Shown: one piece after another, positions 2-64,000 of the stretch
Layout of the letters: each line of letters starts with the position of its first letter
Numbering within the stretch: position 1 is the first letter of the stretch
From: Billgrantia pellis
GTDB lineage: Bacteria; Pseudomonadota; Gammaproteobacteria; Pseudomonadales; Halomonadaceae
DNA length: 64,000 nucleotides
NCBI RefSeq assembly: GCF_008297955.1
Contig: NZ_VTPY01000005.1
Span: forward strand, 310,001-374,000
Reading direction: 5' to 3'
Program-made: the position numbers and the translations under genes
The notes under the pieces: generated by a model
What the model saw: only the letters and a program-made list of their open reading frames with translations
Databases searched by the model: none
Told to the model about the DNA's origin: nothing

Positions 2-490
2 GAGTTGGGCGTCGGTCTGCTGCAGACTCACCTGTTCGTCTTCTATTACGCCGTGCTATCGGCCATTACACCCCCCGTGGCCTTAGCGGTATTTGCGGCC
101 GCGGCCATTACCGGTGAGCGAACCCTGGGAATAGCGCTCAGTGCGCTGCGCTTGTCGGTCGTGGCGTTTCTACTGCCATTCGCTTGGGTGTTCCATCCTG
201 AGATCAATCTGCAAGATCTCTCGTTCGGTGCCTTGCCCGGGGTGGTGGCGGCGGTGCTGCCGATGATCGTCGCCACGGTCGGTATCAGTGCTGCCAATGT
301 CGGGTTTTGTTGTCGTCGACTCAAGGTCGCCGAGCGCCTGATCATCGCGATTGCCGGTGTAGTGGCTCTCACCCAAGGGGTGCTGATCTCGGCGGTCGCC
401 TGCGTGGCGATCATCGGGCTGATGTTCAATGCACGGCGTACCTCGGCTCCCGGTTCACTCACGGCAAAAGCCAAAGGGAGAATGTCATGA
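2..490 (+). CDS. TRAP transporter fused permease (TAXI type), C-terminal part
   Basis: C-terminal 162 residues of an inner-membrane TRAP permease; the start lies before the window. Several hydrophobic helices are visible, and the stretch YYAVLSAITPPVALAVFAAA is typical of the DctM/TAXI large subunit, which uses an ion gradient and a periplasmic binding protein to import organic acids. The final residues are hydrophilic (KAKGRMS). The stop overlaps the start of the next gene as ATGA, so the SMP-30 lactonase is translationally coupled and probably acts on the imported compound. The substrate cannot be told from this fragment. Confidence 0.85.
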   Translation, partial: ELGVGLLQTHLFVFYYAVLSAITPPVALAVFAAAAITGERTLGIALSALRLSVVAFLLPFAWVFHPEINLQDLSFGALPGVVAAVLPMIVATVGISAANVGFCCRRLKVAERLIIAIAGVVALTQGVLISAVACVAIIGLMFNARRTSAPGSLTAKAKGRMS

Positions 491-61674: not shown

Positions 61675-62136
61675 TTATTCGTCTCGCTCGGCATGCGAGG
61701 CGAGTCGCTCCAGCGCACGCTTGAGCCTCGGGTCGTCGATATCGGCGGCACAGGCGGATATCTCGTCGGCGGCCGGGGCCGGCAGTCGGCGAACCTGGCG
61801 AAGGGGGGGCTTGACGGGGCGCACCGGACGCACCTTCAGAGTGAAGCCGCTTACCGGGGCGAACTCGGGCAGGCGATGCAACAGGTCGAGCAGGCGCGGC
61901 TGCTCATAGCGCAGCCAAGTCAGCCATACGGCGCGATCGGTGAGTAGCGTCAACTTGCCGTCGCGAAACCCCCCGACGAAGACATGGTCGCGTACTTCTT
62001 CGGGCAAGTGGTCTCGCAGGTGCTGCTGGGCCTGGGCGATGGCCTTCGCGATGCGCATCAGCGGCGCCAGCTCGCCACGCCCGTCGAGCAAGCGTGACAT
62101 GGGCTGGGCTCGTGAACGCTTAACCTTTATACTCAT
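61675..62136 (-). CDS. dciA: DUF721 / DciA-type protein
   Basis: 153 residues. N-terminal KH-like DUF721 domain (LMRIAKAIAQAQQHLRDHLPEEVRDHVFVGGFRDGKLTLLTDRAVWLTWLRYEQPRLLDLL) with a Pro/Arg/Val linker (TLKVRPVRPVKPP) and a C-terminal helical tail. DciA is the replicative helicase operator in bacteria lacking DnaC. Start at MSIKVKRSRAQP; further upstream the frame is not conserved-looking. Divergent from the secA region, a common neighbourhood. Confidence 0.85.
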   Translation of the reverse strand: MSIKVKRSRAQPMSRLLDGRGELAPLMRIAKAIAQAQQHLRDHLPEEVRDHVFVGGFRDGKLTLLTDRAVWLTWLRYEQPRLLDLLHRLPEFAPVSGFTLKVRPVRPVKPPLRQVRRLPAPAADEISACAADIDDPRLKRALERLASHAERDE

Positions 62137-62277
62137 GAGCTTGTTTCTCGGGGCGGAAGCCTTGTCCGGATGACGCGGGCAGGTCGAACATACCATCTGC
62201 CTCGGAATGCGCTAACCGGCGTTCGTCGCCGGCGCCCGACACATCACAGCCTATCACGCTCGGAGTTCGTCGACAGC

Positions 62278-62658
62278 ATGACCGCCGCCCCGATCACGCA
62301 CCAGCGCACCGACAGCCCGCCCTCGGGGGCGGTGACACGCTGCCGGTTGCGTTCGCGCTGGTGGCTGGCGGGCCTGTTGGTGACTTGCCTGCTGCCGGCG
62401 GGGCTGTCCCAAGCGGAAACGCTGCGCCTCGCCGAGCGAGTGGTCCATACCTGCATTCTCGCTCCGACGCTGATGCGCGCGCGCTGCCGCTACGTGGCGC
62501 GCCGACGCGCTTCACCGCACTGGCCACCGCGTCGCCTGGTCGTCACCGCGCATCGGACGCCCACCCCACGTCGACCGCGGCCGTTCCGTGCCCGCTGGGC
62601 GGCCGCGCATGACGTCCTGACGCGCCGCGGCCCGCCCGGTGTGTGTCGCTGCCCTTGA
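62278..62658 (+). CDS. Putative SecM-like secretion monitor with RGPP arrest motif
   Basis: 126 residues, immediately upstream of secA. Signal peptide: basic RCRLRSR (21-27), hydrophobic [16 protein letters not shown] (28-43), cut site SQA-E (44-47). The mature part is Arg/Pro-rich and not enzyme-like. Near the end is RRGPPG: Arg117-Gly118-Pro119-Pro120, six residues before the C-terminus, preceded by Phe103 and Trp107. E. coli SecM has the same plan: signal peptide, F...W... then R-A-G-P close to the stop, then secA. RAPP-type motifs stall ribosomes in ApdA/ApdP. GGAG lies 12 bases before the ATG, a rather long spacing; a GTG at codon 19 is an alternative start. It could be a spurious ORF in GC-rich DNA, but the signal peptide argues against that. 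Confidence 0.55.
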
Positions 62659-62670
62659 TCCACGATACTA

Positions 62671-62705
62671 CCGGCGGGGCTGGTTCGGACCAGTCTTCGC
62701 GCCGG
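62671..62705 (+). repeat. Stem-loop in the secM-like/secA intergenic region
   Basis: Inner stem CTGGT/ACCAG with a TCGG loop (62680-62693) and outer stem CCGGCG (62671-62676) with CGCCGG (62700-62705). It lies between the stop of the upstream ORF and the secA ribosome site and could take part in folding that controls secA translation. Confidence 0.5.
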
Positions 62706-62734
62706 CTAACGCGACACGCAGAGATGGACGTCTC

Positions 62735-64000
62735 ATGATCAATACGTTGTTACGCAAGGTCGTCGGCTCCAAGAACGACCGCGAAGTCAAGCGCATGCAG
62801 CGCCAGGTGGCGCAGATCAACGCGCTGGAACCGCAGTTCGAAGCGCTCGATGACGCCGCCCTCAAGGCGCGCACCGAGGAGTTTCGCGAACGTCTGGCCG
62901 GCGGCGAGAGCCTCGATGCCCTGCTGCCGGAGGCCTTTGCCACGGTGCGCGAAGCCAGCAAGCGCGTAATGGGCATGCGCCATTTCGATGTCCAGATGAT
63001 CGGCGGCATGACGCTGCACCGCGGGCGCATCGCCGAGATGAAGACCGGCGAGGGCAAGACCCTGGTCGCCACGCTGGCGGTCTATCTCAACGCACTACCC
63101 GGCCAGGGCGTTCACGTGGTCACGGTGAACGACTACCTGGCGCGCCGCGACGCCGAGTGGATGCGGCCGCTCTACGAATTCCTGGGCCTCACGGTCGGCA
63201 TCATCTTCGCCGGCCAGAGCGGTGAGCAGAAGCGAGCCGCCTATGCCTGCGACATCACCTACGGCACCAACAACGAGTACGGTTTCGACTACCTGCGGGA
63301 TAACATGGCCTTCTCGCTGGAGGACAAAGTCCAGCGCAGCCTCAGCTTTGCCATTGTCGACGAGGTGGACTCGATCCTGATCGATGAGGCGCGTACTCCG
63401 CTCATCATCTCCGGTGCAGTGGACGAGAATACCGAACTCTACAAGGTGGTGGACAAACTCGCGGCGCACCTGGTCAAGGGCGAGGTGTCGGAAGACCCCG
63501 AGGCTCCCGTCAGCGGTGACTTCGTGCTCGAGGAGAAGCACAAGCAGGTCGAGATCACCGAGGCCGGCCACCACAAGGTGGAGGAGTTGATGCGCGCCGA
63601 GGGGCTGCTGGGCGAGGACGATTCGCTCTACGCCGCACAGAATCTCAATTTGCTGCACCATATGCATTCGGCCCTGCGCGCCCGTCACCTTTACCATCGC
63701 GACGTCGACTATATCGTCGTCGACAACCAGGTCGTGATCGTCGACGAACACACCGGCCGCACCATGCCCGGTCGCCGCTGGTCCGAGGGGCTGCACCAGG
63801 CCGTGGAGGCCAAGGAGGGCGTGCCGGTGCAGCGCGAGAGCCAGACGCTGGCCTCGACCACCTTCCAGAACTATTTTCGTCTCTACGACAAATTAGCCGG
63901 GATGACCGGTACCGCCGATACCGAGGCCTTCGAGTTCCGCCAGATCTACGGCCTTGACGTGGTGGTGATTCCCACCAACCGGCCGCTGATTCGTCGCGAC
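62735..64000 (+). CDS. secA: Preprotein translocase ATPase SecA, N-terminal part
   Basis: First 422 residues; the gene runs past the window. SecA drives post-translational secretion through SecYEG. Walker A MKTGEGKT with Lys108 in the same position as in E. coli, [27 protein letters not shown], and the DEVD box [17 protein letters not shown] followed by the start of the preprotein cross-linking domain. The ATG sits in GGACGTCTCATG; GGACGTC can pair with GACGTCC inside the upstream ORF. Confidence 0.97.

Follow-up and report, generated by a model that had tools for sequence, protein, structure and literature searches.

What does the short open reading frame directly before secA in Billgrantia pellis encode, and does it act on secA? 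The frame lies in a stretch of 64,000 nucleotides (the window; contig NZ_VTPY01000005.1, positions 310,001 to 374,000), and the initial annotation had proposed that it encodes a new SecM-type arrest peptide. The locus is organized as follows.

62278..62658, + strand: upstream open reading frame (uORF) of secA, 126 aa, proposed secretion-monitor arrest peptide; read from the translation, with an R[G/A]PP frame in 134/150 family genomes and an overall dN/dS of 0.25.
62735..64000, + strand: secA (SecA ATPase), an ORF continuing beyond the window end; PF07517, E 4e-133.
62262..62265, + strand: GGAG, likely Shine-Dalgarno sequence of the uORF, at -16 to -13, 73-83% conserved per base among 132 relatives.
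62726..62729, + strand: GGAC, likely Shine-Dalgarno sequence of secA; GGA is found within -14..-5 of secA in 126/132.

The translated B. pellis frame consists of a basic n-region, a signal sequence, a long basic stretch and an R117-G-P-P end. Its TGA is separated from the secA ATG at 62735 by 76 nt (median across relatives, 74 nt), and on the other flank, a gene encoding a DciA domain is transcribed divergently (61675-62136, minus strand). The secA gene at 62735 is the stronger of two SecA-type matches to PF07517 in the B. pellis genome; the weaker SecA-like gene is located elsewhere in the genome (contig C1:656820-657968, locus L002) in a 655-residue frame (E 3.3e-98). Across the family, a CTANCAYG box is kept some 20-28 nt ahead of the uORF (62251-62258 in B. 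pellis); it may serve as a -10 element of a transcript whose leader is very short, but scanning 62050-62800 for the sigma-70 consensus revealed no promoter.

The DNA upstream of secA was sampled from 150 of 151 family genomes, one genome with a weak secA match being excluded. A uORF with a signal peptide and an R[G/A]PP end was located directly before secA in 134 of the 150; 132 were found by a script using the signal core and R[GA]PP, and two (L142 and L042) were added by hand. The uORF of L042 (genome G071) carries RGPP, has no stop codon and reads in frame into secA, possibly through a sequencing error. The remaining 16 genomes lack the uORF and are confined to 4 of 24 genera (g3, 0/8; g5, 0/6; g22, 0/1; g24, 0/1). 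An ATG was present at a suitable place in 132/132 aligned relatives, the script preferring ATG, though in a few of them (L052, L099 and L101 among others) the start assignment is uncertain. Since the script picked ORFs by signal core and R[GA]PP, the invariance of those positions in its table is partly built in, and the search was therefore repeated with a model of residues 50-77 alone, without signal or motif. This model, trained on the same ORFs that the script had selected, matched 132/150 genomes at E <= 0.001, and R[GA]PP was found downstream in 132/132. Residues 50-77 were missed by it in L113 (genome G146), where a 44-residue tail follows RGPP and the uORF stop overlaps the secA start.

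Selection was measured within the genus of B. pellis (36 pairs of 9 genomes). The dN/dS values were 0.03 for the signal, 0.03 for residues 50-77 and 0.04 for residues 108-120, compared with 0.62 for the n-region, 0.43 for residues 78-107, 0.80 for the tail after RGPP and 0.25 for the whole uORF. Omitting the positions fixed by the search pattern gave 0.05 for the signal and 0.07 for residues 108-116 (without RGPP). The stretch 62278-62658 is a real, well-conserved protein-coding uORF, as the initial annotation had claimed. It had also asked for conserved ends and a drifting middle, and this pattern was found, with the addition that residues 50-77 are as constrained as the signal. Of the outcomes named there as fatal, neither a frame not conserved among relatives nor an absence of coding selection was seen: the frame recurs in 134/150 genomes and its blocks stand at dN/dS 0.03-0.04.

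A profile built from 63 members (alignment A1) matched 13 of 293 genomes of the order, 12 of them in the same family; the 13th, where a frame of 406 residues gave a weak local match (E 4.5e-4), was left uncounted. This whole-genome search was not anchored on secA, and 12/12 family matches were located directly before secA, one per genome. Within a named genome collection, 188 stretches encode relatives, and the 80 of 188 that were kept carry names such as Billgrantia, Halomonas, Vreelandella, Chromohalobacter, Salinicola, Onishia, Modicisalibacter and Litchfieldella, genera which we take to be Halomonadaceae; the closest relative among these 80 is Billgrantia saliphila (92%). The scan of this collection used one signal-peptide pattern and therefore favours close relatives. 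Among other families of the order, 30 genomes were sampled and secA was placed in 28; an ORF of at least 60 residues with a hydrophobic N-terminus and a [RQH][AG][PG][PG] end before secA was found in 0/28. In 12 of these 28, an ORF of ~310 residues with a presumably M23-peptidase-like end stands directly before secA. An ORF of about 310-340 residues, presumably ending like an M23 peptidase, occupies the same place in 14 of the 16 uORF-less family genomes (L134, L136, L137, L139, L141, L143-L149, L151 and L152). Because none was detected in the 28 other-family genomes, the uORF looks like an invention within Halomonadaceae, a family of salt-loving bacteria.

The N-terminal part of the protein carries the first conserved block.

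62359..62418, + strand: signal peptide core and cut site, codons 28-47; dN/dS 0.03, or 0.05 at positions outside the search pattern.

A charged n-region, a hydrophobic core and an AxA|[ED]-like site, read from the alignment and not from a dedicated predictor, are conserved in the 132 sequences. The textbook signal peptide with a cut at SQA-E described at first was borne out, and the cut-site residues among the 132 are A83, G16 and S14 at position 46 and E56 and D48 at position 47. The distance from signal core to motif is near-fixed (81-88 residues in 132 ORFs), the spacer from position 47 to the P-site residue has a median of 71 residues, and the protein is strongly basic, with a median net charge of +16. 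A cysteine, Cys37 (62386-62388), is present in 132/132 within a lipobox-like L-[VILF]-[GST]-C, after which the hydrophobic core continues to the AxA|[ED]-like site; Cys37 was required by the search pattern of the script, and 132/132 is therefore partly built in. When the search was run without the Cys requirement, C-x-x-P was found before residues 50-77 in 121/132, and in several of the 11 others the match span began too early for it to be seen. If L-V-G-C at 34-37 were a true lipobox, the protein would be a lipoprotein, but the hydrophobic stretch extends past the Cys, which makes SPase I cleavage at 46/47 the likelier reading.

The C-terminal part carries the putative arrest sequence.

62602..62637, + strand: C-terminal arrest block, codons 109-120; D112 in 123/132, dN/dS 0.04 for residues 108-120 and 0.07 for 108-116 without RGPP.
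62626..62637, + strand: RGPP arrest motif, where a stall is expected (P site, Pro119; A site, Pro120); R[GA]PP in 132/132 frames found without it, the stall position being taken from the RQH toeprints reported in PMC10987492.

The motif lies about six residues (median) from the C-terminal end, and the R-G-P-P end noted earlier was upheld by the frames found with residues 50-77 alone. The motif reads RGPP in 124 and RAPP in 8 of the 132, the difference being Gly or Ala at residue 118 (the script set was selected for the motif), and the 12-nt motif is written in 76 different codings among the 132. Among its neighbours, D112 (123/132) and V113 (104/132) are conserved. Other residues singled out by the initial annotation proved variable among the 132: Phe103 (V24, L23, P12), Trp107 (L35, P28, W16) and the Gly after RGPP (position 121: S24, A20, V18). 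The 8 genomes with RAPP comprise all 6 sampled members of genus g7, together with L029 and L034; in g7, the residues before RAPP are also without Asp-Val-Leu. In PMC12992588, RAPP and RGPP are described as versatile arrest cores, RGPP giving generally the most robust arrest among the cores tested, and the account of RAPP-type arrest in PMC10951233 places the Arg in a pocket of the peptidyl-transferase centre, where the A-site Pro cannot attack.

Between signal and motif lies a further block.

62425..62508, + strand: conserved helix-forming block, codons 50-77, expected outside the tunnel with Pro119 in the P site; dN/dS 0.03, AlphaFold2 helix.

This second strongly conserved block was absent from the initial annotation. 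Its family consensus is near RLAERLTQICLMAPEAIRAESRRVARRR. AlphaFold2 predicted a helix over residues 20-81, with ten-residue pLDDT means of 87-95 for 51-80 in a model with an overall mean of 69 and a pTM of 0.30. At the stall, residues 50-77 would be 42-69 residues away from the P site and, with 30-40 residues filling the tunnel, would just have emerged from it. The amphipathicity of residues 50-67 was not clearly above that of shuffles (on average, 0.21 of shuffles were at least as high). For E. coli SecM, PMC4373844 reports that arrest is also strengthened by the chain outside the ribosome.

Two kinds of known arrest peptide offer themselves for comparison, and the SecM likeness was examined as follows. 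PF06558 was not among the families matched by any of 63 members (E up to 1). A class-wide PF06558 search matched the E. coli control alone and 0/274 genomes, and SecM was therefore compared as one sequence: hhalign against E. coli SecM gave E 0.93 (probability 0.03 on the hhalign scale) and BLASTP gave E 16. Homology to SecM went undetected in these comparisons. The uORF product resembles E. coli SecM in being a secreted uORF peptide before secA with a C-terminal Arg-x-x-Pro end and a possible mRNA duplex in which the arrest codons pair with the region of the secA start; it differs in showing no detectable homology, in having RGPP/RAPP and not RAGP, and in being without a conserved F...W. Set against the SecM arrest sequence F-x4-W-I-x4-G-I-R-A-G-P, positions 103 and 107 are variable, with no SecM-like F...W spacing kept, and the motif is RGPP/RAPP. 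PMC10951233 depicts RAPP and SecM chains in different conformations.

In ApdA/ApdP systems, yidC occurs as a downstream gene. An uORF of secDF or yidC would be expected of that class, and the gene downstream here is secA. The RAPP/RGPP core is shared with ApdA and ApdP, which stall with the third motif codon in the P site according to PMC12992588; they are set apart by their description in PMC10987492, which places them in Actinobacteriota and Alphaproteobacteria, ApdP before secDF.

The closest counterpart is a group that has already been described. We take Halomonadaceae to fall within Pseudomonadales in GTDB r202. GTDB moved most Oceanospirillales into Pseudomonadales, as related in PMC7498684. 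Fujiwara et al. (2024; PMC10987492) define uA_RQH_Pseudomonadales as the secA-uORF group of the RQH family, and the tested member (R109GPP) arrested ribosomes in vitro, with an arrested fraction >0.9 for E. coli as well as B. subtilis ribosomes; the passages concerned report arrest for the group and, for one secDF member, induction of the downstream gene. The Halomonadaceae peptide shares with this group the position as a secA uORF, a small unannotated protein, an N-terminal signal, a C-terminal RGPP and, as we infer, the GTDB order; Arg109, the motif position of the tested member, is found in 15/132 Halomonadaceae relatives. The sequence features expected of the RQH family were found: a sec-gene uORF of an unannotated small protein, an N-terminal signal, a RAPP-like C-terminal motif and a spacer longer than 30 residues. 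The RQH groups are characterized in PMC10987492 as without overall similarity beyond the motif, whereas the Halomonadaceae set has two further conserved blocks beside it. No Pfam or NCBIfam family was found for the B. pellis protein at E up to 10, and among 63 relatives the matches were scattered and weak, no family being matched by more than 4. Among the open-access papers searched, none was found on Halomonas with an arrest peptide and secA, and the group name occurred in PMC10987492 alone. Judged by order and motif, the Halomonadaceae peptide probably belongs to uA_RQH_Pseudomonadales. It cannot count as new as a class, since the secA-uORF group with RGPP is already described in that paper; on present sequence comparison it is not detectably SecM, and it is known in kind and new in detail.

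Taken together, the uORF product is very probably a secretion-monitor arrest peptide that sets SecA levels, a reading that draws on sequence evidence. The proposal that a secreted uORF product with a RAPP-like end precedes secA stood up to the sequence tests: frame and both ends are conserved, the middle drifts, and purifying selection is strong. What falls away is its novelty as a class and the SecM-like F...W. In the proposed mechanism, uORF and secA would be carried on one mRNA and the nascent signal peptide would be handed to the Sec pathway. The ribosome would then halt when Pro119 occupies the P site and Pro120 the A site, covering RGPP and the next few codons, which would otherwise be paired with the region just before the secA start. 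With these codons covered the pairing would be lost, so that the secA start would be freed and secA translation would rise; the pairing is a family-level result and its effect is proposed. Under brisk export, by analogy with SecM, pull on the chain would end the arrest and secA would stay low.

The pairing invoked here was analysed at the RNA level.

62641..62649, + strand: arm 1 of a predicted mRNA helix, in the codons after RGPP; duplex of -20.3 kcal/mol for the surrounding 24 nt x 18 nt.
62711..62719, + strand: arm 2 of the predicted helix, just upstream of the secA ribosome-binding site; 9/9 pairs with arm 1.

Duplex energies within genomes were compared with those of permuted partners for 62 representatives (<75% identity, >=20 nt between the genes; 2/64 dropped) over 49 pairs of sequence intervals. 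For secA -30..-2 against nt 0..+36 from the Arg117 codon, within-genome pairing was better, with z between -4.4 and -5.6 and 0/1500 permutations in each of six cells. Elsewhere in the 49-cell map, a few cells were at -3.1 to -3.4, some were positive up to +2.6, and the rest were between. With 29 clade representatives, 0..+36 against -18..-2 gave z -3.9 (0/4000), and 12..36 alone was weaker (z -2.2, 84/4000). Pairing of the DVL codons (GAYGTCCTG) with the secA Shine-Dalgarno sequence is striking in some genera (L048, L094, L028, L044) and was considered as an alternative, but codons -24..0 gave a weak result (z -1.8, 112/3000), the signal lying at 0..+36 instead.

The B. pellis helix itself is unexceptional, 175/2000 shuffles being as good, and other stretches of its uORF pair equally or better (-20.2 from 62347 and -19.8 from 62434, versus -17.7 at 62626). 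Shuffled sequences fold as well as the B. pellis region (z 0.15), no helix appeared at the arm positions when a consensus fold was computed for 18 close relatives, the 9-bp helix is broken in many of these 18 on the alignment, and Rfam had no match in 62000-63000. Masking the arrest site barely opened the B. pellis secA Shine-Dalgarno sequence (5.72 to 5.68 kcal/mol). Over the 62 genomes the same mask lowered the value from 5.18 to 3.86, little better than a mask placed 30 nt upstream (4.10) and thus weakly specific, and for E. coli it was not better than upstream masks (4.62 vs 4.16 and 4.82). E. coli secM-secA has a duplex of -17.5 kcal/mol in the same two intervals (a bare energy, without a null). 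By eye, both helix arms of the B. pellis genus are changed in L160 to a new complementary pair, GGUGUCAC with GUGACACC; the aligned register gives 5/9 pairs. Pairing of the sequence ahead of secA with the codons of the arrest motif and those shortly after it, in a form peculiar to each genome, is supported for the family and not for B. pellis alone. Much of the 0..+36 stretch would be expected to lie under a ribosome halted at Pro119.

Other readings of the locus were weighed against the secretion monitor. The protein could be a secreted small protein with a periplasmic role, its place before secA being incidental and RGPP and the mature blocks being kept for that role. Residues 50-77, conserved (dN/dS 0.03), predicted to be helical and unneeded for arrest in the simplest model, would fit such a role, as would the strongly basic composition. 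According to PMC12992588, however, no tetrapeptide is avoided more strongly than RGPP in 10 major bacterial groups, yet it is kept here near the end of the protein while the tail drifts, and all 12 matches of the whole-genome search were directly before secA; we regard a periplasmic role as improbable. The uORF could also be a leader ORF whose reading opens secA by translational coupling without a programmed arrest, as the short distance from stop to secA, the overlap in L113 and the family-level mRNA pairing would allow. Coupling, though, needs no particular amino acids, yet R[GA]PP occurred in every frame found without it, in 76 codings, and the signal peptide is under equally strong selection, which leaves this reading as unlikely as a periplasmic role. 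A chance open frame in GC-rich DNA, where long overlapping ORFs are common in the window, can practically be dismissed given third-position changes of 1355 versus 535 and 522 at the other two positions (36 genus pairs), the dN/dS pattern and the 134/150 genomes.

For the secretion monitor, a more specific version can be put forward tentatively. In this two-module form, which we hold to be possible but doubtful, the RGPP core would be combined with the helix of residues 50-77 (RLAERLTQICLMAPEAIRAESRR type) just outside the tunnel and with the signal-peptide Cys; a Sec or targeting factor would read these and set arrest release, and the pairing of the secA start with ribosome-covered codons would have been rewired clade by clade.

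Three things are new: the survey of the uORF across the family, the RNA pairing and the conserved helix that should lie just beyond the tunnel exit. The 132 genomes provide a natural alignment of an RGPP-type peptide at secA, in which evolution holds the last 12 residues (the arrest block), the signal and an unexpected helix outside the tunnel. The codons that pair with the secA start differ between clades and fall where a stalled ribosome should cover them, so the family offers a comparative test of how arrest becomes secA induction.
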